Shown here in pieces: positions 34,666-54,743 of a DNA stretch of 55,190 nucleotides (position 1 is its first letter; the number at the start of each line of letters is the position of its first letter). The stretch is from Hyphomicrobiaceae bacterium. GTDB lineage: Bacteria > Pseudomonadota > Alphaproteobacteria > Rhizobiales > Aestuariivirgaceae. The position numbers and the translations under genes were made by a program. Below the pieces are notes generated by a model that worked only from the letters and a program-made list of their open reading frames with translations, was not told the origin of the DNA and ran no database searches. The stretch lies in contig OMIC01000027.1 in NCBI GenBank assembly GCA_900298995.1, positions 1 through 55,190 on the forward strand. Direction: 5' to 3'.

Positions 34666-35436
34666 TCAGCCGGGCGCGAGGCGGAAATCCGCCCCCTCCG
34701 GCAGGGTCTGGCCGCCATCCACCACGATCGTCGTGCCGGTGATGTAGGAGGCATCCTCCGAAGCGAGGAACAGGGCGCAATTGGCGATGTCGCGGGGCGT
34801 GCCGAGACGGCCCAGCGGAACTGCCTGCTCCATCGATCTTATGAACTCCACCGAGCGGTGCAGCTTCATGCCAGACGTCAGGATGTTGCCGGGTTCAATG
34901 CCATTGACGGTGATGCCATAGCCCGAGAACTCGAGCGCCGCCGCCCGGATGAAGCCGTTGATGCCCGCCTTGCTGGCTGAATAATGGCCATGTCCCGGAC
35001 TCGTGACGCGGGGCCCGGTGATCGATGACGTGAAGATCATGCGCCCCGCGCGTTTCGCCTTCATGTGCGGCAGGGCGGCGCGCGCGGCAAGGAACGTGCC
35101 CTTGAGGTTTACGGCCAGAACCTTGTCCCACTCCTCGGGGCTGATGTTCTCGATGAGCGTCCAGGGATAGATGCCGGCATTCTGCACCAGGATGTCGAGG
35201 CCGCCGAAACCGTCAATCGCCGTCGTCACCGCCCGCCCGGCATGATCGGCGCGCGCGATGTCGGTCTCGACGAACAGGCCCTTGAGGCGGGCTGCGGTGG
35301 TACGCCCGGCGTCCACTTCGGTGTCGGCAATCACCACCCGCGCGCCCTCGTCCACGAAGCGCTCGGCGATGGCCTCGCCGATGCCGCGCGCCGCGCCGAT
35401 CACCAGCGCAACCTGCCCCTCGAGTCGTCTGGTCAT
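34666..35436 (-). CDS. SDR family oxidoreductase of the sugar operon
   Basis: A 256-residue short-chain dehydrogenase with GAARGIGEAIA (cofactor loop), NAGIYPW, and the catalytic serine and YSASK region. Its start overlaps the ABC permease stop by 4 bases, so it is the last gene of the PhyH-SelA-ABC operon. It probably oxidises the imported sugar or polyol, or an intermediate. The substrate is not identifiable. Confidence 0.88.
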   Translation of the reverse strand: MTRRLEGQVALVIGAARGIGEAIAERFVDEGARVVIADTEVDAGRTTAARLKGLFVETDIARADHAGRAVTTAIDGFGGLDILVQNAGIYPWTLIENISPEEWDKVLAVNLKGTFLAARAALPHMKAKRAGRMIFTSSITGPRVTSPGHGHYSASKAGINGFIRAAALEFSGYGITVNGIEPGNILTSGMKLHRSVEFIRSMEQAVPLGRLGTPRDIANCALFLASEDASYITGTTIVVDGGQTLPEGADFRLAPG

Positions 35437-36431
35437 GCGAACCTCTGCCGGATCTGCAGTTTGAGAGTGTCGAGAAGTACCGCCGCCAGCACCAGAAGCC
35501 CAAGGATCACCTGGGTGTAGTGGGCGGGCAGTCCCATCAGATTGATGGCGGTATGAATGGAGGAGAGCAGCAGCACGCCGGCATAGACGCCGGGCAGCTT
35601 GCCCACGCCGCCCTTGAGCGACACGCCGCCGATGACCACGGCGGCAAAGGCGTTGAACAACATGCCGGTACCGAGATTCGCGGTTGCGCCGCTGGTGCGG
35701 ATGGCGAGCAGCCAGCCGGCCAGCCCGGCGATGGCGCCAGCCAGAATGAAAGAGATGAACATCAGGCGGTCAACCTTGATGCCGGCCCGGAAGGCCGCGA
35801 CGGCATTGCCGCCGATCAGCGTGATGTGGCGGCCGAAGGGCGTGCGGCCCATGATGAAGGAAAACACCGCGAAGCAGAGGATGGCGATCCAGGCGATGAG
35901 GGGCACATAGAGAAGTTGCTCGATGCCGATGACGCGCAACGAGGGCGAGAGATCCTGCGCTGAACGTCCGCCGGAAATCGCCACCACGAGGCCGCGCACC
36001 CAGATGTAGGATGCGAGCGTCACGATGAAGGCGTTCATCTTCAGCCTGATGGTGAAGAAGCCATTGAGGAAGCCGATGACCGCGCCGACCGCGAGCGCCA
36101 TCAGCAGCGAGACCGGCACCACCAGCCATTCCGGCGTGAGTGTGATGCCCAGTCCGATGCCGCGCGCGCAGAACAGGATGCCGGTGATCATGGCGGCGAG
36201 CGCCGCAGTTGATTCAACCGAAAGATCCATGTGGCCGGCGATGATGACGATGGCCAGTCCGATGGCCATGACGCCCACGAAGGTCGACTGTTCGATGATG
36301 TTGGCGAAGATGCCGATCTGAAAGAAATTCGGCACGAACAGCGAGAAGGCAAGCAAAACCGTCGCCAGCATGAACCAGACGAGGTGGTCGAGAACGAATT
36401 CGGCGATGGCCCGCTGCCGGGGAGATGTCAT
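35433..36431 (-). CDS. Sugar ABC transporter permease
   Basis: A 332-residue integral membrane protein of the ribose/xylose/fructose (RbsC/FrcC) permease type, with about nine or ten hydrophobic segments and the signature near HMDLSVESTAALAAM. The ATG at 36431 is chosen because the next one upstream (36452) abuts a strong hairpin and would leave no room for a ribosome binding site. It serves with the solute-binding protein upstream and the interrupted ATPase. Confidence 0.9.
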   Translation of the reverse strand: MTSPRQRAIAEFVLDHLVWFMLATVLLAFSLFVPNFFQIGIFANIIEQSTFVGVMAIGLAIVIIAGHMDLSVESTAALAAMITGILFCARGIGLGITLTPEWLVVPVSLLMALAVGAVIGFLNGFFTIRLKMNAFIVTLASYIWVRGLVVAISGGRSAQDLSPSLRVIGIEQLLYVPLIAWIAILCFAVFSFIMGRTPFGRHITLIGGNAVAAFRAGIKVDRLMFISFILAGAIAGLAGWLLAIRTSGATANLGTGMLFNAFAAVVIGGVSLKGGVGKLPGVYAGVLLLSSIHTAINLMGLPAHYTQVILGLLVLAAVLLDTLKLQIRQRFA

Positions 36432-36454
36432 GCGCAGTGTCCGGTGGTTCATTG

Positions 36455-36486
36455 GCCGTCATTCCGGCACAGGCCGGAATGACGGC
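36455..36486 (-). repeat. Perfect 14-bp stem-loop between binding protein and permease
   Basis: GCCGTCATTCCGGC pairs perfectly with GCCGGAATGACGGC around a 4-base loop. It sits between the stop of the binding-protein gene and the permease start. Such hairpins often stabilise the upstream binding-protein mRNA and lower permease output. The GTCATTCCGG core also resembles dispersed palindromic repeats of proteobacteria. Confidence 0.8.
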
Positions 36487-36500
36487 TGTCGTCGTGTCGG

Positions 36501-37544
36501 TTACTGGACCGGGGTGATCTTGTCGGCGGGCGCCTTCAGGTTGCCCCAGAAGCGGGCCTCGTCGACATTGTCCTTGGTGATCGCCGCGCCGGGGATCTTG
36601 ATGTTCGGACCCCAGGGCTCGATGGTGAGAACCGAATCAAGTCCGAGCACCTTGTAGGTTCCGGGCTTGATCTCCTGCTTGTTCACCACCTTGTCGGCGA
36701 ACATGGCAAGTGCCGCCGCCTGGGCATAGAGCGGTTGCTCCACTTCCACGTTCAGCCAGCCCTTGCGGATGAGATCGAGGCCGACGGGCGCACCGTTGGA
36801 CGAGATCAGCATCACGTCGCCCGGCTTCTTGCCCTTGGCTTCGAGTGCGGCCACCGCGGCAACGGAGAGATGCGCGGCATGCAGGAAGATCAGGTCGATG
36901 TCGGGGTTTGCCACCAACTGGTCGGAGACGATGGTTCCGGCGTTGGATGCCTCCCACTGCATGGCGGGCAGCGTGATGATCTGGACGTCCGGGAACTCCT
37001 TCATGCGCTCCTCGAAACCCTTCTGGATGTCGAGGGTGTAGGGGTCAGCCGGGTCGCCGAGCACCTGCAGGATCTTGCCCTTCACGCCACCCTTCTTTTC
37101 GGTCAGCAGGCGCTGGATTTCACCCGCCGCCACGTGACCGATCTCGACCGTGCCGGCGACTGAGGTCAGGTCGCTGGGCGTCGAGGTGATCTGGCGGTCG
37201 AAGATCATCACGGGAATGCCCGCCGCGCGTGCCTTCTCGATCGAGGGTGCGAGCGCGTTGAAGTCCACAGCCGCAAGGATGATGGCAGCGGGCTTCTGCA
37301 GGATCGTGTCGTTCATCTGGCTCTGCTGCAGGTCGGTCTTGTTGTCGGCGTTGAGGGTCACCACCTCGTAGCCGACATCACCCATGAACTTGGTGATCGA
37401 GGACACCGACTCGGTCTGGAATTCATCCAGCAGGGTCGGGACCATATAGTAGATCTTGCCCTTTGAGTCCGCGAAGGCGGGGGCAACCGCAGTCATCGCC
37501 GCAATGGCAATCGATGCAGTCAGTAGTCGGCGCAGCCGGTTCAT
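36501..37544 (-). CDS. Sugar ABC transporter substrate-binding protein
   Basis: A 347-residue periplasmic binding protein with a signal peptide (about residues 1-25, ending AFA) and a type I periplasmic-binding fold like RbsB. Segments such as [10 protein letters not shown] and [11 protein letters not shown] show the fold. The ligand is probably a monosaccharide or polyol. It stands between the interrupted ATPase and the permease. Confidence 0.9.
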
Positions 37545-43946: not shown

Positions 43947-44933
43947 ATGGAACTTTTCCAGCTTTTCCTGCAGAATCTGCTGTCACCTGCCATCCTGTTC
44001 TTTGCGCTGGGCATCGCGGCGGGCCTGCTCAAATCCGATCTCGACGTTCCCGAGAGCATCAGCCGCTACCTCTCGATCTATCTGATGATGTCGATCGGCT
44101 TCAAAGGCGGGGCGGCACTGGCTGGTACCGAGGGCGGCATTCTGGCGACCCTGCCACTGCTCATGGCCGGGGCTGCCATGAGTTTCCTGATCCCCTTCCT
44201 GGCCTTCTGGCTGTTGCGCCGCACCACGACACTCGACCCGCCCACCCAGGCCGCAGTGGCTGGCCATTACGGCTCGGGCTCGATCGTCACCTTCGTCACG
44301 GCGGTCAGTTTCCTGCAGCAGGCAGCCATCGGCTATGACGGCTACATCGTCGCGGTGCTGGCACTGATGGAAGCGCCCGCCATCCTCTCCGCCCTCTACA
44401 TCGCCCATCGTGCCGCGCCCGAAACCATTGCCGCCGGCAAGCAGGCCAGCCGCAAGCTGAGCCGCGAGATCTTCACCAATGGCGCCATCCTGCTGCTGTT
44501 TGGCAGCTTCATCATCGGCTTTGCCTCCGGCGCGCCGGGCCTCGCCAAGCTTGAAGGTTTCCTGGTCACACCCTTCCAGGGCATTCTCGCGCTGTTCCTG
44601 CTCGACATGGGTCTGCTGGTCGCGCGGCAATTCCATCACATGAAGGACTTCACCCTGCCGCTCGCCGCCTTCGGCCTCTACATGCCGCTCCTCGGCGCCA
44701 CTGCCGGCCTCGGTGTTGCAGCTGCACTCGATACGGGGGTCGGCACGGGCGCGTTGTTCATGGTGCTGTGCGCCAGCGCCTCCTACATCGCCGTTCCTGC
44801 CGCCATGCGGCTTGCCCTGCCGCAGGCACGACCGGCGATCTATCTGCCACTGTCGCTGGCCATCACCTTTCCCTTCAACATCGTGGCGGGCATTCCGCTC
44901 TATGTGCTGGCCGCGGAGCACGTGCTTGGCTGA
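43947..44933 (+). CDS. SbtA-like sodium-dependent bicarbonate transport family permease
   Basis: A 328-residue membrane protein with about ten hydrophobic segments in two inverted halves. The conserved stretch GHYGSGSIVTFVTA in the first half is typical of the SbtA (DUF897) family. Cyanobacterial SbtA imports bicarbonate with sodium and is regulated by the PII-like SbtB. No sbtB is nearby. Here it is followed by DUF6671 and cysD in overlapping order, which suggests another anion, possibly sulfate, by inference. Confidence 0.87.
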   Translation: MELFQLFLQNLLSPAILFFALGIAAGLLKSDLDVPESISRYLSIYLMMSIGFKGGAALAGTEGGILATLPLLMAGAAMSFLIPFLAFWLLRRTTTLDPPTQAAVAGHYGSGSIVTFVTAVSFLQQAAIGYDGYIVAVLALMEAPAILSALYIAHRAAPETIAAGKQASRKLSREIFTNGAILLLFGSFIIGFASGAPGLAKLEGFLVTPFQGILALFLLDMGLLVARQFHHMKDFTLPLAAFGLYMPLLGATAGLGVAAALDTGVGTGALFMVLCASASYIAVPAAMRLALPQARPAIYLPLSLAITFPFNIVAGIPLYVLAAEHVLG

Positions 44934-45750
44934 GACCTACCATGCCTGCACCGCCGTCCTCGCCACGCGGCACGGCAAGCAAGCGGTCATCGGGCCGCCG
45001 CTGTCGGCACATGCAGGCCTTCGCCTGGTGGTTCCTGAAGACCTCGACACCGACAGCCTCGGCACCTTCACCGGCGAGGTGCCGCGCGTCGCTCCGATGC
45101 GCGACACGGCACGCCGCAAGGCCCTGATGGGAATGGCAGCCGCTGGCCTGCCGCTGGGTGTTGCCAGCGAAGGAAGCTTCGGACCGCATCCGTCGATCCC
45201 CTTCCTTGCCGCCGCGCATGAACTGCTCATCTTCATCGATGCCGTGCGCGGCCTTGAGATCGTCGAGGAGCGCCTCTCGCCGGAGACCAACTTCGCCGCC
45301 ATCGACCTTGCGCCCGACGCCGACGTGGACGGCTTCCTGGCGCAGGCCGGCTTTCCCGACCACGCCCTGATCCTGCGGTCGGACGCAGGCCTGGTCAAAG
45401 CCATCACCAGTCGCACCATGCTCGATGCGGCCCTGCGCATGGCGCGGGGTCCTGCCCGGCTCGAGACCGACATGCGCGCCCACCTCAACCCCACGAGACG
45501 CGGTGAAATCGGAAAGCTGGCCGAGAAACTCGCCCGGCGGCTGGCAACCCCGTGCCCAGCCTGCGCGGCGCCGGGCTTTGGCGCCGTGCGCGCCGAACGC
45601 GGGCTGCCCTGTTCAGATTGTGGAGCAGCCACACAATTCATCAGTTTACTGATCAATGGCTGTTCCCTTTGCGGACACGAAGTGTCGCTTCCCCGTCCGG
45701 ACGGTCAGTTTTTCGCAACCCCCGCCCAATGCCCGGAGTGCAACCCATGA
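44926..45750 (+). CDS. DUF6671-like zinc-ribbon protein
   Basis: The product is 274 residues from a TTG at 44926, overlapping the permease stop by 8 bases. The N-terminal 200 residues form an alpha/beta domain with [14 protein letters not shown] near the start and [10 protein letters not shown] in the middle. The C-terminal 60 residues hold CPAC, CSDC, CSLCGHE and CPEC, so probably two zinc ribbons. I recall this as DUF6671, of unknown function. Tight coupling to the permease and cysD suggests a regulator or partner of one of them. Confidence 0.7.
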
Positions 45751-46646
45751 CACTGTCTCATCTCGACCGCCTCGAAGCCGAAGCGATCCACATCATCCGG
45801 GAAACCGCGGCACAGTTCCGCAAACCGGTTCTGCTCTACTCGATCGGCAAGGACTCAACCACGCTGCTGCATCTCTGCGCCAAGGCCTTCTTTCCGGGAA
45901 AGCCGCCATTTCCTCTGCTCCATATCGACTCAACCTGGGAGTTCCGCGCGGCGCTCAGCTTCCGCGACTGGGTGGTGAGGCATTATGGTGTCGAGCTGGT
46001 CGTGTATCGCAACGAGGATGGTGTCCGGCGCAATATCAATCCCTTCGACCACGGCTCCAGCCTCTACACCGAGATCATGCGCACGGTGCCGCTGAAGCAG
46101 GCAATCACCGAACTGGGCTTTGACGCCGCCATGGGCGGGGCGCGGCGCGATGAAGAAAAATCGCGCGCCAAGGAACGCATCTTCTCGGTGCGCGACGCCA
46201 GCCACGGATGGAATCCGAAAAGCCAGCGTCCGGAACTCTGGGACAACTACAATGGGCGGCTGGCGCCCGGCCAGACGATGCGTGTCTTCCCGATCTCCAA
46301 CTGGACCGAGCTTGATGTCTGGCTCTACATCCTCCGCGAGGAGATCCCGCTTCCGCCGGTCTATTTCGCTGCGGAGCGTCCCGTGGTGCGCCGTGACGGC
46401 CAGATCATTCTGGTCGATGACGCGCGCATGCGGCTCGAGCCCGGCGAGACCCCCGAAAGGCTCGCGGTGCGCTTTCGCACCTGTGGCTGCTATCCGCTCA
46501 CCGGCGGCATGGTCTCGGCGGCGCAGACCGTGCGGGAGGTCGTCCTCGAAACCATTCAGGCCGCTGGTTCCGAGCGACAGGGCCGGGTGATCGACAAGGA
46601 TGGCGCCTCCGCCATGGAGGACAAGAAACGCCAGGGGTATTTCTGA
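45747..46646 (+). CDS. cysD: Sulfate adenylyltransferase subunit 2
   Basis: A 299-residue PP-loop enzyme that forms adenosine 5'-phosphosulfate from ATP and sulfate. The PP-loop SIGKDSTT is at residues 32-39, and further family motifs are HIDSTWEFR and CGCYPLTGG. The C-terminal [11 protein letters not shown] and KKRQGYF match canonical CysD, including the part near the CysN contact. The ATG overlaps the DUF6671 stop by 4 bases. CysN, the GTPase partner, is normally encoded next to cysD but is absent here; a DUF2946 gene follows. Confidence 0.93.
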
Positions 46647-47117: not shown

Positions 47118-47198
47118 TCCGGACGATCCTCGCGGCATGTGCTGCCGCTTCCCCTGGCCTCACAAGGCCGCATGTCCCATTCGCGAAAGCTTCCCATC

Positions 47199-47678
47199 AT
47201 GAAACGTCTCAAGGCACTCGCCGTTGCCTCAACACTCACCCTGGCCGTCTTGTCCGGACTGGCTGATGCCAATGCCCATGACATCAGGATCGGCACGCTT
47301 GTCATTCATCACCCCTGGGCAAGACAGTCGCCCATGGGCGCCGATGTCGCTGCAGGCTTCATGACCATCACCAACACCGGCGCGACGGATGACCGGCTCG
47401 TGCGGGCCACCTCCGACATCTGCGCCAGGGTTCAGATCCACACCATGAAGATGGAGGGCGACGTCATGAAGATGGACGAATTGCCCGACGGCCTCGTCAT
47501 ACCGGCCGGCGCTACGGTGGAACTGAAGCCGAGGTCACTCCACATCATGTTCATGGGGCTCAAGTCCCCGGTCAGTGAGGGCGAAAGCTTCGACGGCACG
47601 CTCACCTTCGAAAAGGCGGGCACCGTCTCAGTGGATTATGAGGTCAGGGCACCCAACGCCGGGATGAACATGAACTGA
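47199..47678 (+). CDS. Copper chaperone PCu(A)C
   Basis: A 159-residue periplasmic protein with a signal peptide (about residues 1-26, ending ANA). The copper site is of the H-x10-M ... H-x-M type: His81, Met92, His115 and Met117. PCu(A)C delivers Cu(I) toward the CuA site of cytochrome oxidase. The ATG at 47199 gives a proper signal peptide; the frame is open 20 codons upstream. A hairpin follows the stop. Confidence 0.92.
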   Translation: MKRLKALAVASTLTLAVLSGLADANAHDIRIGTLVIHHPWARQSPMGADVAAGFMTITNTGATDDRLVRATSDICARVQIHTMKMEGDVMKMDELPDGLVIPAGATVELKPRSLHIMFMGLKSPVSEGESFDGTLTFEKAGTVSVDYEVRAPNAGMNMN

Positions 47679-47987: not shown

Positions 47988-49010
47988 ATGTTCAGACTCG
48001 ACGAAAAGCTCGCCCGCATCCGGGCCGGAAAGTACACCCGCGCCGACTTCATCATCGCCGACGCCAAGGACGGCGACATGGGCCCGAGCATGACCTCGAC
48101 AGGCCCGAAGCGCGCCAAGGACGGCAGTTTCACCCGCTATCATACCCGTCCGGAATTCCTCCAGAACATCCGCGCCATCATCGATCAGGGCATCGTCGAC
48201 ATCATGCTCGTCTCGGCCTCCAATCTCGAGGTGCTGCACGAGCAGGGCGCGTTCCGCAACAGCGTGGTCAAGCCCGCCATCCGGGCCAATGACACGACGG
48301 ACATCTGGGTGGTGCGCGGGGCAGGCTATTCCAAGCAGCCCTCACGGCCCTTCCGCTCGGCGAATCTCGCCCGCGTCCTGCACGGCGGGCTCGATGCCAA
48401 CCCCAAGGCTGCCGTCACCGGCACGGACCTCGGCCTCTATTCCATCACCTTCAACAACGACCTCGAGCGCGACTATGCCTCGCTGGAAGCCTTTTCCGCC
48501 TTCCGCGAGGATGCGGCGCGCAACGGCTTCAAGTATTTCCTCGAGGTGTTCAACCCGAATGTCGCAACCGGCATCGATCCCGAGCAGCTGCCCTTCTATG
48601 TCAATGACTGCATGATGCGCTGTCTCGCGGGCGTGACCAAGGCCGACCGGCCGCAATTCCTCAAGATCCCCTTCAATGGCGCGAAGGCGCTGGACGAACT
48701 CGCCTCCTATGATCCGAGCGTCATCGTCGGTATTCTGGGCGGCGGCGCGGGCACCACGCGGGACTGCTTCGAACTCATCAACCAAGGCGAGAAATACGGT
48801 GCGCGCGTGGCCCTTTTCGGCCGCAAGATCAATCTCGCCGAGGATCCCCTGGCGATGGTTTCCTTCATGCGCGAGGTGGCCGGTGGCAACATCGCGCCTG
48901 CCGAGGCGGTCAAGGCCTATCACGCCAGCCTCGCCAAGAGCGGCATCAAGCCACTGCGCGATCTCGCTGCCGACAATGAGATCACCGAGAAGGTTCTGAA
49001 GGGGGCCTGA
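47988..49010 (+). CDS. Class I aldolase-like protein (DeoC/LacD/FbaB fold, inferred)
   Basis: The 340-residue protein looks like a TIM-barrel aldolase. A strand ends in FLKIPFNG, where Lys226 would be the Schiff-base lysine. A later GRKINLAEDPLAMV segment resembles the phosphate-binding end of class I fructose-bisphosphate or tagatose-bisphosphate aldolases. GAGGAAG precedes the ATG. The next gene, 1 base away, is a PfkB kinase; kinase plus aldolase is the classic arrangement for cleaving a phosphorylated sugar. The exact substrate is unknown and the aldolase call is tentative. Confidence 0.65.
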   Translation: MFRLDEKLARIRAGKYTRADFIIADAKDGDMGPSMTSTGPKRAKDGSFTRYHTRPEFLQNIRAIIDQGIVDIMLVSASNLEVLHEQGAFRNSVVKPAIRANDTTDIWVVRGAGYSKQPSRPFRSANLARVLHGGLDANPKAAVTGTDLGLYSITFNNDLERDYASLEAFSAFREDAARNGFKYFLEVFNPNVATGIDPEQLPFYVNDCMMRCLAGVTKADRPQFLKIPFNGAKALDELASYDPSVIVGILGGGAGTTRDCFELINQGEKYGARVALFGRKINLAEDPLAMVSFMREVAGGNIAPAEAVKAYHASLAKSGIKPLRDLAADNEITEKVLKGA

Positions 49011-49011
49011 C

Positions 49012-50031
49012 ATGGCGGAGACCGTCCGGCGGGGATTTGTTACCGGCGGAACCTGGTGCGTGGACGCCAACAAGGTCGTCAGCCACTGGCCGAAGGAGGA
49101 CGGCCTCGCCGAATATCTCGGAGAGGAAAAGGCGAATGGCGGATCGGGCAGCAATTTCGCGCTCGACATGCGCCAGCTCGACCCGGGAATGCCGCTCGAG
49201 ACCATAGCCCTCATCGGCGATGACGAGGATGGCCGCTTCCTCATGGAGGTGGCCGACAAGGCTGGGATCGACCGCAGCCGCATGCAGGTCACGCAGGAGG
49301 CGCGCACGCACTATACCGACGCCTTCATCTCGGCCGAGAGCCACCGCCGCACGCACATCTATTTCCGCGGCACCTCGGCGCTTCTGTCGCCCGATCACTT
49401 CGACTTCAGCACGGTGCGGGCGCGCATCCTGCATCTCGGCCTTCCTGGCGTGCACAGAATCATGGACGAGCCGTGGGGCGGCGACTCCAATGGCTGGGTG
49501 AGCGTGCTGCGCAAGGCACGGGCTGCGGGGCTCGAAACCAACATGGAGCTGGCCAGCGTCGGCGCCGAGGCGATCCGGCGCATTGTCTCGCCCTGCCTGC
49601 CGCATCTCGACACGCTGGTTGTCAACGACGTCGAGATCGGAGCGCTGGCCGGCGTCGTGGCCTCGCAGGACGGCGTCACGGACATTGCGGTTGCCGAACG
49701 CGCCGCCCGCGCCGTGCTCGACCAGGGTGTGAAGCATGTCGTCGTGGTGCATTCGCCCTCGATCGCGATTGCCGTCATGCATGGCAAGCCGACCGTGCTC
49801 AAGGGCTCGACGAAGATCCCGGCCGATCAGATCGCCAGCGCTAATGGTGCAGGGGATGCCTTCGCCGCCGGCATGATGTTCGCCTGGCACGAAGGCTGGG
49901 ACGTCGAGCGCTGCCTGGCGCTTGCGCATGCCAGCGCGGCGTGTTCACTTCGCGGTCTCGCCACCACCGGCTCGATCGAGCCCTGGCAGGCGTGTCTCAG
50001 GCTGGCCGACGGCTGGGGCTGGCGCAACTGA
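49012..50031 (+). CDS. PfkB family carbohydrate kinase
   Basis: A 339-residue ribokinase-like kinase with the C-terminal signature ANGAGDAFAAG (catalytic Asp282) and an N-terminal GGSGSNFALDM segment for sugar binding. PfkB kinases phosphorylate ribose, fructose, tagatose, inositol derivatives and nucleosides. It starts 1 base after the aldolase stop. The aldolase partner downstream in the pathway suggests it makes a phosphorylated ketose or deoxy-sugar. Confidence 0.9.
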   Translation: MAETVRRGFVTGGTWCVDANKVVSHWPKEDGLAEYLGEEKANGGSGSNFALDMRQLDPGMPLETIALIGDDEDGRFLMEVADKAGIDRSRMQVTQEARTHYTDAFISAESHRRTHIYFRGTSALLSPDHFDFSTVRARILHLGLPGVHRIMDEPWGGDSNGWVSVLRKARAAGLETNMELASVGAEAIRRIVSPCLPHLDTLVVNDVEIGALAGVVASQDGVTDIAVAERAARAVLDQGVKHVVVVHSPSIAIAVMHGKPTVLKGSTKIPADQIASANGAGDAFAAGMMFAWHEGWDVERCLALAHASAACSLRGLATTGSIEPWQACLRLADGWGWRN

Positions 50032-50072
50032 GAGACAATGGGTTTTCGCCGCAACGCGTGGAGGGGATGAAA

Positions 50073-50921
50073 ATGGCGCATAATTTCCTGAGCCGGCTGA
50101 CGGGGTCCTTCGCCATGCCGGCGGCTGAAAATCCCACCGTCGCCATGGTCGAGGCGGCCTACCGTCACCATGGGCTCGACATTCGCTATATCAATTGCGA
50201 AGTGCCGCCCGAGCGTCTGGGCGACGCTGTGAAGGGCGCGCGTGCCATGGGCTGGATCGGCTTCAACTGCTCGATCCCGCACAAGGTGGCGGTCATCAAG
50301 CATCTCGACGGGCTGGGCGAGTCCGCCGCCGTCATGGGAGCCGTGAACTGTGCCGTGCGGCGTGGCGATCAGTTCATCGGCGAGAATACTGACGGCAAGG
50401 GCTTCCTGCAGTCCCTGCGCACGCTGACCGATCCCAGGGACAAGATGGTGGTCATGTTCGGGGCGGGCGGCGCGGCCCGGGCCATCGGCGTGGAACTGGC
50501 CTTCGCGGGCGCAAAACGCATCATCATCGTCAACCGCAGCGCTGAACGTGGCCAGGCGCTTGTGGATCTCCTGAACAGCAAGACCACCGCGCGGGCCGAA
50601 CTCGTCACTGGAACGACCTCGTACCGGGTTCCCAAGGATGCACAAATTTTGGTCAATGCCACCTCGATCGGCCTCTATCCGGATGTGGAAGGACGCATCA
50701 ATCTGGATGTGGCGAGCCTCCATCCCGGCCTGATTGTGGCCGATGTCATCACCAATCCTCCGCGTTCGCCGCTGATCCGCGATGCCGAGGCGCGCGGCTG
50801 CCGGACGCTGGACGGGCTCGGCATGGTTGTCAATCAGGGCGTGATCGGCATCAAATATTGGACAGGCATTGATGTCGACGCCGGCGTGATGCGCCGCACA
50901 CTGGAAGACCTGTTCGCCTGA
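50073..50921 (+). CDS. AroE/shikimate dehydrogenase-like oxidoreductase with altered substrate site
   Basis: The product is 282 residues from an ATG at 50073 (GAGGGG 7 bases upstream). Catalytic Lys71 (IPHKVAV) and Asp107 (ENTDGKGF) of the shikimate dehydrogenase family are present. The NADP motif GAGGAARAI is at 130-138. The shikimate-binding S-x-S motif near the N-terminus is missing: the aligned stretch reads AAENPTVAM (residues 17-25), with Ala and Asn where both serines should be. It is therefore unlikely to act on shikimate. Its position between a kinase and an ABC importer suggests a carbohydrate or cyclitol dehydrogenase. Confidence 0.85.
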   Translation: MAHNFLSRLTGSFAMPAAENPTVAMVEAAYRHHGLDIRYINCEVPPERLGDAVKGARAMGWIGFNCSIPHKVAVIKHLDGLGESAAVMGAVNCAVRRGDQFIGENTDGKGFLQSLRTLTDPRDKMVVMFGAGGAARAIGVELAFAGAKRIIIVNRSAERGQALVDLLNSKTTARAELVTGTTSYRVPKDAQILVNATSIGLYPDVEGRINLDVASLHPGLIVADVITNPPRSPLIRDAEARGCRTLDGLGMVVNQGVIGIKYWTGIDVDAGVMRRTLEDLFA

Positions 50922-50937
50922 GCGCTCAACTGACGTG

Positions 50938-50968
50938 TTGACACGGCCGGGTTTTTGATGCGCAATCA
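50938..50968 (+). promoter_or_regulatory. Possible promoter for the frc-type transporter genes
   Basis: A TTGACA box at 50938-50943 is followed by a weak -10-like CAATCA at 50963-50968. It lies in the 148-base gap between the AroE-like gene and the binding-protein gene, consistent with a separate, stronger start for the transporter. Confidence 0.3.
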
Positions 50969-51069
50969 TTGCTCGTGCCATGGAGGCGTGAGCCCCCGTG
51001 GTCCGGATTAGAAAACAGACTATGCAATCTGCTCCGTTTCCGGAGCACAGTTCCGATGGGAGGATCCTC

Positions 51070-52095
51070 GTGAAGACACTGTTCAAAGCCGCTCTGCTCA
51101 GCGCCGCCGCCATGGCGGTGTTCGCCGCAGCTCCGTCCCAGGCCGCCGGCGTCGGCGCCTGCCTGATCACCAAGACAGAGACCAACCCCTTCTTCGTGAA
51201 GATGCGCGAAGGCGCCTCCGCCAAGGCCGCGGAACTCGGCATCGACCTCAAGGCCTATGCCGGCAAGGACGACGGCGACAATGAAGGCCAGGTCGCGGCC
51301 ATCGAAACCTGCATCGCCGATGGCGCAAAGGGTATCCTGATCACGCCATCCGACACCAAGGCCATCGTGCCCTCGATCAAGAAGGCCCGCGACGCTGGCA
51401 TTCTGGTGATTGCGCTCGACACGCCGCTCGAGCCCATCGACGCCGCCGACATGACCATGGCCACCGACAACTTCCAGGCTGGCTTCCTGATCGGCGCCTA
51501 TGCCAAGGCCAAGCTCGGCGATGCTGCCAAGGACGCCAAGATCGGCTTCCTCGACATCAACTCCAAGCAGGTCACCGTGGACGTGCTGCGCGACCAGGGC
51601 TTCATGAAGGGCTTCGGCATCGACGTGAAGGACCCCAACGTGATCGGCGACGAGGATGATCCGCGCATCGTCGGCCATGACTACACCAACGGCAATCCGG
51701 AAGGCGGCCGCAAGGCCATGGAGAACCTTCTCCAGATCAATCCGGACATCAACGTGATCCACACCATCAACGAGCCCGCCGCCGCCGGCGCCTACGAGGC
51801 GCTCAAGGCCGTGGGCAAGGAAGGCCAGGTGCTGATCATGTCGGTAGACGGCGGCTGCCCGGGCGTCAAGGACGTCGCGGCCGGCATCATCGGCGGCACT
51901 TCGCAGCAGTATCCGCTGCTGATGGCATCGATGGGCGTCGAGGCGATCAAGAAGTTCGCTGAAACTGGTGAGAAGCCGAAGGCCACCGAAGGTAAGGCCT
52001 TCTTCGACACCGGCGTGCAGCTGATCACTGACAATCCGGTTGAGGGCGTGCCCTCGATCGACACCAAGAAGGGCCTCGAGCTCTGCTGGGGCTAA
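51070..52095 (+). CDS. frcB: Sugar ABC transporter substrate-binding protein, FrcB type
   Basis: A 341-residue periplasmic binding protein with a signal peptide (about residues 1-25). The start is a GTG at 51070 with GGGAGGA about 6 bases upstream; the frame is open further upstream. The sequence ([29 protein letters not shown]) is of the FrcB type that binds fructose, mannose or ribose in rhizobia. frcC and frcA homologues follow. The aldolase and kinase upstream suggest the ligand may be a less common sugar, so the symbol is by homology only. Confidence 0.85.
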
Positions 52096-52234
52096 GCTTC
52101 ATCGCCTTGCGATGAATGAACGCTGACGAGTGCAGGAGGGCGGCCGATCTCGGTCGCCCTCACCCAAAACAAGAAGAAGCGGTGGTGGCAGGTTGGCCTG
52201 CCGCACATCCGCGGTTGCAGCGGGGAGGAACGGG

Positions 52235-53296
52235 ATGATGGCGCAGACGCAGGAATTCGAGAAAAGCCTGGACCAGAGCGATGCGGCCGTTGTCCATTTT
52301 CGTGACGGGGACTCGGCGCTCCGCCGCTTCCAGCAGTTCCTCCACGCCAGTCCGGCGGCGGTTCCGCTCATCGTGCTCATGCTGTCGGTGGCGATCTTCG
52401 GCATTCTCGTCGGCGGCAAGTTCTTCAACGCCTATTCGCTGACGCTCATCATCCAGCAGATCACCATCGTCGGCATCGTGGGCGCCGCACAGGCGCTCAT
52501 CATCCTGACGGCGGGCATCGATCTTTCGGTGGGCGCGATCATGGTTCTCTCCGCGGTGGTGATGGGGCAATTCACCTTCCGCTACGGGATCCCGGTTCCC
52601 ATCTCCATTCTCTGCGGCCTTGCATGCGGCACGCTGTGCGGCTTCATCAACGGCTGGCTGGTTGCGGCCATGCGCCTCCCGCCCTTCATCGTCACGCTGG
52701 GCACCTGGCAGGTCTTCAACTCGATCAAGTACATCTATTCGCGCAACGAGACGATCCGCGGCCAGGACATCGAGGCCGATGCGCCGCTGCTGCAGCTCTT
52801 CGGCGCGCAGATCAATCTTGGCGGCGCGGTCGTGACCCTCGGCGTGGCCTTCATGTTCGCGCTCGTGATCGTGCTCTGGTATGTTCTGAACTATACGGCC
52901 TGGGGCCGGAGGCTCTACGCCGTCGGTGATGATCCCGATGCAGCGGAGCTCTCCGGTGTTCCCGTGAAGCGCATGCTGATCACGGTCTACACGCTTGCAG
53001 GCCTCATCTGTGGCATGGCCGGCTGGGTGCTGATCGGCCGCATCGGCTCGGTCTCGCCGACATCGGGCGAATTTGCGAACATCGAATCGATCACCGCCGT
53101 GGTGATCGGCGGCATGTCGCTGTTCGGGGGCCGCGGATCCATTCTCGGCATGATCTTCGGCGCGCTGATCGTCGGCGTCTTCTCGCTGGGCTTGCGGCTC
53201 TATGGCGCTGATGGACAGTGGACCTGGCTCCTCATCGGCGTGCTGATCATCGGCGCCGTGACGGTCGATCAATGGATCAGAAAGGTTGCAGGCTGA
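52235..53296 (+). CDS. frcC: Sugar ABC transporter permease, FrcC type
   Basis: The 353-residue membrane protein has a 50-residue cytoplasmic N-terminal extension and about ten hydrophobic segments. The permease signature TAGIDLSVGAIMVLSA is as in RbsC/FrcC. Start ATG 52235 has GGGGAGGA just upstream; a second ATG one codon later is equally possible. The stop overlaps the next start in TGATG, so translation is coupled. Confidence 0.9.
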   Translation: MMAQTQEFEKSLDQSDAAVVHFRDGDSALRRFQQFLHASPAAVPLIVLMLSVAIFGILVGGKFFNAYSLTLIIQQITIVGIVGAAQALIILTAGIDLSVGAIMVLSAVVMGQFTFRYGIPVPISILCGLACGTLCGFINGWLVAAMRLPPFIVTLGTWQVFNSIKYIYSRNETIRGQDIEADAPLLQLFGAQINLGGAVVTLGVAFMFALVIVLWYVLNYTAWGRRLYAVGDDPDAAELSGVPVKRMLITVYTLAGLICGMAGWVLIGRIGSVSPTSGEFANIESITAVVIGGMSLFGGRGSILGMIFGALIVGVFSLGLRLYGADGQWTWLLIGVLIIGAVTVDQWIRKVAG

Positions 53297-54078
53297 TGTC
53301 GCAGACACCCATTCTCACCGCGCGCGGACTGGTCAAGCGCTATGGCCGTGTGACGGCCCTCGACCGGGCGGATTTCGACCTCTATCCCAACGAGGTGCTG
53401 GGCGTGATCGGCGACAACGGCGCCGGCAAATCGACGCTCATCAAGGCCATCTGCGGCGCGGTTGTGCCTGATGAAGGCGAGATCCGGCTCGAGGGCAGGG
53501 TGCTGCAGTTCAAGTCGCCGATGGATGCACGGCTGGCCGGCATCGAGACGGTCTATCAGAATCTCGCCCTGTCGCCCGCGCTGTCGATTTCGGACAACAT
53601 GTTCCTGGGGCGTGAAGTGCGCAAGCCCGGGGTCATGGGCTCCGTCTTCCGCATGCTCGACCGCAAGGCAATGGAGAAGCATGCGCGCGAGAAGCTCTCG
53701 GAGCTCGGTCTCATGACCATCCAGAACATCGGCCAGGCCGTCGAAACCCTGTCGGGCGGCCAGCGCCAGGGTGTCGCCGTGGCCCGCGCGGCGGCCTTCG
53801 GCACCAAGGTGCTGATCATGGATGAGCCCACCGCGGCGCTGGGCGTCAAGGAATCGCGCCGGGTTCTGGAACTGATCCTCGATGTGAAGCGGCGTGGCCT
53901 GCCCATCGTGCTCATTTCGCACAACATGCCGCATGTCTTCGAGGTGGCCGACCGCATCCACATTCATCGGCTTGGCACAAGGCTCTGCACCATCAATCCC
54001 AGGGACTTCACCATGTCCGACGCGGTGGCCTTCATGACCGGCGCCAAGACCCCTCCCGCGGAACTGCTGGCGGCGTGA
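53296..54078 (+). CDS. frcA: Sugar ABC transporter ATPase, FrcA type
   Basis: A 260-residue single-domain ABC ATPase with Walker A (GDNGAGKSTLIK), the LSGGQRQGVAVA signature, Walker B (VLIMDEPTAALG) and the switch histidine (VLISHNM). It energises import with the FrcB and FrcC homologues. It provides the reference for the interrupted paralogue at 37572-38363: here the codon after GKSTLI is AAG (Lys), where the paralogue has TAG. Confidence 0.92.
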   Translation: MSQTPILTARGLVKRYGRVTALDRADFDLYPNEVLGVIGDNGAGKSTLIKAICGAVVPDEGEIRLEGRVLQFKSPMDARLAGIETVYQNLALSPALSISDNMFLGREVRKPGVMGSVFRMLDRKAMEKHAREKLSELGLMTIQNIGQAVETLSGGQRQGVAVARAAAFGTKVLIMDEPTAALGVKESRRVLELILDVKRRGLPIVLISHNMPHVFEVADRIHIHRLGTRLCTINPRDFTMSDAVAFMTGAKTPPAELLAA

Positions 54079-54110
54079 TCCGACTGCGGGCTGTTCAGGA
54101 GACCTGATCC

Positions 54111-54743
54111 ATGACGCTCACTCCCTCGCATCACGATGTGCTGGTCATCGTCGACATGCAGAATGATTTCTGCAAGGGCGGCGCGCTGCCCACGGCGGAT
54201 GGTCATGAGATCGTGCCAGTGATCAATGCCGTGGCCGGGAAGTTCACAAATGTCATCCTGACCCAGGACTGGCACCCGCGCGGCCATGCCTCTTTCGCCT
54301 CCGCACATTCGGGAAAGAACCCTCTCGACACGGTTGACATGCCCTATGGCACGCAGACGCTCTGGCCCGATCACGTGGTTCAGGGCACATGGGGCGCGGA
54401 GTTCCACCCCGACCTCGACGTCCCGCATGCCCAGCTTGTCATCCGCAAGGGCTACAACAAGGATGTCGACAGCTATTCCGCCTTCTGCATGGTCGATGGC
54501 ATCACCCGGACGGGGCTCGCGGGATATCTCCGTGAGCGCGGGATCGAGCGCGTGTTCGTGTGCGGCTGTGCCATTGACTATTGCGTGGGCGGCCTTGCCC
54601 TGGATGCGCGCAAGGCGGGCTTCGAGACCTTCATCATCTCGGATGCCTCAGCATCGATCTTTCCCGATGGCTCTGCCCTCAAGGCCTGGGCTGACACGCA
54701 GGCCGCCGGTTGCAGGAAGATCAGCAGCGCCGACATCGTGTGA
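54111..54743 (+). CDS. pncA: Nicotinamidase, PncA type
   Basis: This 210-residue isochorismatase-superfamily hydrolase has catalytic triad Asp15 (VDMQNDF), Lys113 (IRKGYN) and Cys158 (IDYCVGG). The metal site is Asp53, His55 and His59 (QDWHPRGH), which is specific to nicotinamidases. It converts nicotinamide to nicotinate for NAD salvage. It follows frcA by 32 bases and is probably in the same transcript. Its link to sugar use is unclear, but NAD supply for the AroE-like dehydrogenase is one idea. Confidence 0.92.
   Translation: MTLTPSHHDVLVIVDMQNDFCKGGALPTADGHEIVPVINAVAGKFTNVILTQDWHPRGHASFASAHSGKNPLDTVDMPYGTQTLWPDHVVQGTWGAEFHPDLDVPHAQLVIRKGYNKDVDSYSAFCMVDGITRTGLAGYLRERGIERVFVCGCAIDYCVGGLALDARKAGFETFIISDASASIFPDGSALKAWADTQAAGCRKISSADIV

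Follow-up and report, generated by a model that had tools for sequence, protein, structure and literature searches.

An AroE-like, most likely 5-ketofructose reductase gene lies in a candidate ketose operon with a predicted class I aldolase of a family absent from Pfam and NCBIfam

5-Keto-D-fructose (5-ketofructose) is a diketone that occurs naturally in honey and wine and has been considered as a sweetener; in Gluconobacter it is made by fructose dehydrogenase (PMC7954740). The same source documents a reductase from Tatumella morbirosei, akin to shikimate dehydrogenases, that catalyzes the NADPH-dependent reduction of 5-ketofructose to D-fructose, the other compounds tested not being reduced, and the conversion of sorbose to 5-ketofructose is mentioned in PMC9171043. 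In Sinorhizobium meliloti, fructose is imported by the CUT2 system FrcBCA, encoded in the frcBCAK locus, with frcB and frcCAK under separate promoters (PMC10433430). Here we describe a locus comparable with both in a 55,190-nucleotide stretch of DNA (the window) that constitutes contig OMIC01000027.1 (C27) of the 58-contig, 2.99 Mb genome of a Hyphomicrobiaceae bacterium (GCA_900298995.1). Seven genes on the + strand encode, in order, an aldolase-like protein (ALD; 47988-49010), a PfkB-family sugar kinase (49012-50031), an AroE-like protein (KFR, a designation used also for its group; 50073-50921), an importer of the FrcBCA type and a nicotinamidase-like protein. All seven read open at the coordinates given in the preliminary description of the locus, and the spacings reported there, 1, 41, 148, 139, -1 and 32 bases in gene order, are correct. 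Six of the seven proteins have Pfam matches above cut-off, the exception being ALD. The AroE-like gene most likely encodes a 5-ketofructose reductase rather than a shikimate dehydrogenase and, with about equal weight for and against, we propose that the operon directs the utilization of 5-keto-D-fructose and D-fructose.

Among all PDB sequences, the best match to KFR is 7COK (E 3.2e-98; 56% identity over 279 residues), an enzyme named in the PDB listing as 5-ketofructose reductase, and the next is a shikimate dehydrogenase entry, 1NVT, at E 4.9e-49. The protein has the Shikimate_dh_N, Shikimate_DH and SDH_C domains of the shikimate dehydrogenase superfamily, and retains the PHK and NTDG motifs (as NCSIPHK and ENTDG) that carry the catalytic lysine and aspartate in shikimate dehydrogenases. 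The Ser-x-Ser motif that binds the carboxylate of shikimate is replaced. In an alignment of the window sequence with 34 further distinct sequences and 7COK (35 distinct stop-free sequences having been kept from 60 loci with a long match), NPT stands in place of Ser-x-Ser in all 30 rows of the KFR group, window and 7COK included, and in none of the other six AroE-family rows, five of which have S-[KR]-S. A single branch of the tree, which was built without support values, separates these same 30 rows from the other six. KFR and 7COK thus share a group and a motif replacement as well as 56% identity, and the call of KFR as a predicted reductase is well supported by these comparisons.

The curated AroE models give a divided result: KFR narrowly passes TIGR00507 (201.9 bits, cut-off 200.2) and falls short of NF001319, the best-scoring model (212.9 bits, cut-off 252). 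Given the narrow pass of TIGR00507, automatic annotation can name a KFR gene aroE, and the label carried by the window gene under such models is corrected here. Three annotated plasmid relatives of the group (L097-L099; loci are cited by such numbers) are labelled aroE, likely a recurrent misannotation. The preliminary description had raised the possibility that the AroE-like enzyme is the cell's only shikimate dehydrogenase. It is not, as there is a second Shikimate_dh_N match in the genome, on contig C37, with neighbors that match Kinase-PPPase, Maf, CoaE, an RNase_T exonuclease and SecB. Neighbors of the maf/coaE type are the usual surroundings of alphaproteobacterial aroE genes. The C37 sequence, which was read separately from the alignment rows above, has WPISHSRS near its N-terminus, and so is of the Ser-x-Ser type.

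ALD is matched by no Pfam or NCBIfam model at E 0.001 and by no Pfam model even at E 10, and the name aldolase-like given earlier is now backed by its predicted structure. The AlphaFold2 model (pLDDT 91.9) is a (beta/alpha)8 barrel with K226 on strand 6, D25 on strand 1, G251 and G252 at strand 7 and G278 at strand 8, these positions being read from the strand ends, without superposed coordinates. The structures that it matches best are those of class I aldolases, namely ADH synthase, LsrF and archaeal fructose-bisphosphate (FBP) aldolase, with ADH synthase and LsrF tied as neighbors (Z differs by 0.8). All five residues are invariant in 58 of 58 ALD relatives, and the same positions in LsrF are reported to function in catalysis and phosphate binding (PMC2728841). 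In the structural-match rows LsrF, archaeal FBP aldolase and Methanocaldococcus jannaschii ADH synthase have 13-15% identity to ALD. Sequence searches for solved relatives returned none that is credible, with the family profile reaching LsrF just at E 0.07. The model and the conservation make aldolase chemistry well supported, and ALD is predicted to be a class I (Schiff-base) aldolase, with Lys226 as the putative Schiff-base residue, in a family that Pfam and NCBIfam lack. One scan returned 333 related stretches, of which the 80 most similar are used in the locus counts below. In all 22 annotated cases among the 40 plasmid rows listed (47 records), ALD is a hypothetical protein, so that a function class is now provided for a conserved family that lacked one, and we found no account of this family among the papers listed on altritol- and tagatose-1-phosphate or on rhizobial fructose-1-phosphate aldolase. 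One locus, L018, in a record titled Mycobacterium sp. KBS0706, encodes an aldolase 76% identical to the window ALD, and its gene arrangement resembles that of the Inquilinus loci; the record is probably a mislabelled or contaminated assembly.

The protein encoded one base downstream of ALD is a PfkB-family kinase (PF00294, 97.9 bits, cut-off 25.8) that probably acts on a ketose and is proposed to be a ketose 1-kinase. Its NGAGD motif is invariant in 31 of 31 sequences. The fold is ribokinase-like, with ribokinase, IolC-type, KDG, sulfofructose and fructokinase structures all within a few Z units; with scores so closely spaced, structure is uninformative on the substrate. Ketohexokinase is absent among the 50 structural matches listed, which excludes nothing. 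A myo-inositol route was considered and rejected, the kinase scoring 68.9 against the cut-off of 300 of the IolC model.

Kinase and aldolase genes are closely linked. A PfkB homologue lies 300 bp or less from ALD in 58 of the 80 loci, and 13 further loci have, at 2.5 kb or less, a homologue of the ADP-PFK/GK family (PF04587, an assignment tested on L075), in one case, L082, a fragment. Neither kinase was found in nine loci (L016, L027, L051, L059, L061, L065, L068, L076, L081), in the case of L051 because the contig breaks off within a PfkB gene. These figures are from the 80-locus part only; a 106-locus count was left aside because several of its loci come from the same contigs. There is an apparent replacement of one kinase by the other, as ALD is often beside a PF04587 homologue where PfkB is missing (L052, L057, L060, L063, L067, L069, L073, L075, L090 and others), and two plasmid ALD clusters have FGGY kinases instead. 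A kinase-aldolase fusion in L082 was considered and rejected, as the kinase match lies 91 residues upstream of the true aldolase start, in a disrupted stretch. Kinase-aldolase pairs are known elsewhere, for example the sulfofructose kinase and aldolase YihV-YihT and, in Corynebacterium glutamicum, the IolC-type kinase Cgl0158 with Cgl0159, presumably its neighbor, but the sequence families of these pairs differ from those of the window kinase and ALD. Liver ketohexokinase and aldolase B would be a parallel to the kinase-ALD module if the latter forms a ketose-1-phosphate route.

The preliminary description had suggested checking whether the aldolase, kinase and AroE-like genes are conserved together in other genomes. 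As a contiguous trio they rarely are, being found so in just 2 of the 80 loci: L003, the closest relative, in which the order ALD-PfkB-KFR-FrcB-FrcC-FrcA is retained at 80-91% identity, and L029, in which KFR is divergent from ALD-PfkB. At the level of genomes, the co-occurrence of KFR and ALD is pronounced. Among 297 genomes of the window's order, its own included, KFR (counted at E <= 1e-50) is present in 16, ALD in 36 and both in 15 (Fisher's exact test, 1.3e-14 by genome). Counted by genus, there are 7 with KFR, 17 with ALD and 6 with both, of 122 (2.0e-5). The counts are phylogenetically non-independent, the 16 KFR genomes representing 7 genera, and kinship inflates both test figures. KFR is therefore nearly nested within the ALD genomes, the one KFR genome without ALD (G692) having the most divergent reductase (50%). 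KFR was also found, at 61-88% identity, in 12 of 49 genomes chosen for ALD (50 loci used of 63 intended). Sampling of the class gave no KFR match at E 1e-50 in 336 other genomes, where the best are 36-38% identical; this count understates the background, since 15 of the 296 other genomes of the order have KFR. Four plasmid records have a KFR-group gene, and two of these (NZ_CP039924, NZ_CP092346) also have ALD.

In L156, KFR comes directly after frcBCA and a divergent ROK gene lies upstream, and in L154 it is beside a fructokinase-like PfkB gene followed by a ROK gene and frcB. For this PfkB gene the best NCBIfam model is fructokinase, at 143 bits (cut-off 450), with PDB matches to the fructokinase 7CF8 (E 7.5e-43) and to 4WJM, an entry without a specific name (1.3e-112). 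At five loci, on plasmids of Agrobacterium, Gemmobacter, Thioclava and Rhizobium gallicum (L097, L098, L099, L100) plus L118, a KFR-like gene is located directly after a GMC oxidoreductase gene, and an AraC-type gene is oriented divergently. In the PDB, the Gemmobacter GMC copy (L098) best matches glucose dehydrogenase (1.1e-37) and the fructose dehydrogenase large subunit (1.9e-30), and it is possible that the GMC-KFR pair is a unit that would oxidize L-sorbose at C5 and then reduce the product to D-fructose. Genes resembling D-mannose isomerase (NF051846, below cut-off) are near KFR in L099 and L161 and within ~7 kb of ALD in Pleomorphomonas loci, and there is a match to such a gene at the edge of L155. 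Taken together, the frcBCA, fructokinase-like, GMC and isomerase-like contexts of KFR and ALD point to D-fructose and 5-keto sugars. Many KFR genes elsewhere have none of the tested sugar genes nearby.

That a kinase, an aldolase and a CUT2 importer have the logic of sugar catabolism had been recognized before, and this is upheld. The interpretation built on it is supported in part, and the route that it left unnamed can now be named as one with a 5-ketofructose reductase, a probable ketose kinase and ALD. In the pathway that we propose, FrcBCA would import 5-ketofructose and fructose, KFR would use NADPH to reduce 5-ketofructose to D-fructose, the PfkB kinase would phosphorylate the ketose at C1, and ALD, through a Schiff base on Lys226, would cleave the ketose-1-phosphate to dihydroxyacetone phosphate and glyceraldehyde. 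We infer the substrates, the C1 position, the cleavage products and the joining of these steps into one route from the gene content, the grouping of KFR with 7COK, the aldolase fold and its invariant residues, the linkage of kinase and ALD, and the co-occurrence of KFR with ALD. A reason for the reductase is suggested by PMC9253636, which, citing Englard 1972, states that liver fructokinase makes 5-ketofructose-1-phosphate, which potently and competitively inhibits the cleavage of fructose-1-phosphate by liver aldolase. A cell with a ketose 1-kinase and an aldolase would, we propose, need to reduce 5-ketofructose first, and this inhibition may explain why KFR is nested in ALD genomes. More generally, we put forward as a tentative idea that the widespread alphaproteobacterial module of ALD with a PfkB or ADP-PFK-family kinase might provide a ketose-1-phosphate route from ABC-imported free sugar, to which KFR would be tied as the entry for 5-ketofructose because, unreduced, its 1-phosphate would block ALD. 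Each of the three enzyme types, 5-ketofructose reductase, PfkB kinase and class I aldolase, is known, whereas our searches of Pfam and NCBIfam returned no model for the ALD family. In the open-access literature searched, a scope that most subscription papers lie outside, we came across no account of a 5-ketofructose operon, nor is one seen for the Tatumella reductase in the available text of PMC7954740, whereas the KFR gene is grouped with genes for an ABC importer, a kinase and an aldolase. The operon is proposed as a genetic system for the bacterial use of 5-ketofructose.

Several observations weigh against this route. Few of the genomes with both KFR and ALD have the two genes adjacent: 1 of the 15 in the order and 2 of the other 12. 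ALD is present without KFR in 21 of the 36 ALD genomes of the order, and ALD contexts include in part short-chain dehydrogenases/reductases (SDR) and zinc-dependent dehydrogenases, none of which scores above the cut-off of a listed model, so that the ketose of ALD may not be fructose. The kinase is far below the cut-off of all 16 NCBIfam models listed, those for fructokinase, IolC, ribokinase and tagatose kinase types included. Also present in the genome are a fructokinase-like gene on contig C39 (57% identity to that of L154), a pair of PF01116 aldolase genes and a single PF00365 phosphofructokinase gene, and ten PfkB proteins are encoded in all; with the fructokinase-like, PF01116 and PF00365 genes available, a fructose-1-phosphate route is not obligatory. 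In S. meliloti, which has the FrcBCA fructose importer, fructose is converted to fructose-6-phosphate by Frk (PMC10433430). As to the reductase, a putative shikimate dehydrogenase of Clostridium pasteurianum, 48% similar to the Tatumella enzyme, was inactive on 5-ketofructose (PMC7954740), and resemblance within the superfamily is therefore by itself no proof. The Tatumella reductase is no more than a candidate member of the 7COK group.

Much of this would be accommodated if KFR is as described but the kinase-ALD pair serves another ketose (e.g. L-sorbose, tagatose, psicose or a deoxy-ketose), with an importer that takes several ketoses and fructose from 5-ketofructose exiting via ordinary fructokinase. 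The fructokinase-like gene, the S. meliloti precedent and the ALD genomes without KFR, with their varied transporters and SDR or zinc-dependent dehydrogenases, all favor such an arrangement, which we regard as a real but doubtful possibility: the presence of ALD in 15 of 16 KFR genomes is hard to square with independence, and the D-mannose-isomerase-like genes near some ALD and KFR genes would, if their below-threshold matches are a guide, feed fructose. It is improbable that the PfkB kinase phosphorylates 5-ketofructose directly, with ALD splitting 5-ketofructose-1-phosphate to dihydroxyacetone phosphate and hydroxypyruvaldehyde and KFR serving for overflow or detoxification, as the tie between ADH synthase and LsrF in structural similarity, at 14% identity, does not single out such chemistry, and most ALD genomes of the order have no KFR. 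We consider it very unlikely that the AroE-like enzyme is a duplicate shikimate or quinate dehydrogenase in a cyclitol or quinate operon. The pass of TIGR00507 and the retained PHK and NTDG motifs would fit, but the NPT sequence shared with 7COK, the failure of NF001319, 7COK as by far the best PDB match and another aroE in a typical block all argue otherwise. There is similarly very little to recommend the view that KFR serves to detoxify 5-ketofructose and that its place in an operon with sugar genes is a matter of chance. 5-Ketofructose does reduce cell viability (PMC9253636) and many KFR genes stand apart from the sugar genes tested, but four loci, the window included, have KFR beside frcBCA or beside a fructokinase-like gene with a regulator and frcB, and KFR co-occurs with ALD across genomes.

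Under the proposed 5-ketofructose/fructose route, uptake would depend on the three genes downstream of KFR, for which the Pfam matches establish a complete set of CUT2-type binding protein, permease and ATPase. The FrcB-like binding protein (51070-52095; PF13407, Peripla_BP_4, 153.6 bits) is below every NCBIfam cut-off listed. It is followed by an FrcC-like permease (52235-53296; PF02653, BPD_transp_2, 142.3 bits) and an FrcA-like single-domain ATPase (53296-54078; PF00005, ABC_tran, 109.1 bits), the start of which overlaps the last base of frcC. As in S. meliloti frcBCAK, where it marks separate promoters, there is a gap between frcB and frcC, of 139 bases in the window, and a further 148 bases precede frcB. 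Features of the S. meliloti frc locus recur in the KFR loci L156, with its ROK gene, and L154, with its ROK and fructokinase-like genes; the window operon, in contrast, has no regulator or frcK, and has ALD, PfkB and KFR upstream instead. RNA folding of 52090-52240 predicts two + strand hairpins in the frcB-frcC gap, at 52098-52116 and 52136-52161 (span 52098-52161), with a fold better than those of 200 of 200 shuffled sequences (z -3.1), and these possibly set the level of frcC and frcA. A consensus scan found no promoter-like sites (1.1 expected) and three terminator-like sites (3.9 expected), numbers so near expectation that they say nothing on the transcripts.

The last of the seven genes (54111-54743) encodes a nicotinamidase-like hydrolase of the isochorismatase fold (PF00857, Isochorismatase, 98.7 bits), scoring 161.4 bits with NF008623 (cut-off 174). 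The preliminary description had included it in the operon, of which it is probably not a member. None of the 80 ALD loci contains a match to it, not even L003, which keeps the other six genes; nicotinamidase was accordingly rejected as a step of the route, and the gene is probably an unrelated bystander.

No RNA family reaches its gathering score in the window, and near the window end there are just weak matches at chance level. Immediately upstream of the operon is a gene for a PCu(A)C copper chaperone (47139-47678), for which no functional link was seen, and further upstream are a CysD sulfate adenylyltransferase gene (45744-46646) and a match to the Na+-dependent bicarbonate transporter superfamily (Sbt_1; 43947-44933). 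A second CUT2-type sugar importer is encoded on the - strand at 34666-37544, with a binding protein (36501-37544) and a permease (35433-36452), both identified by Pfam, and an ORF behind them (34666-35436) that encodes a putative ATPase.

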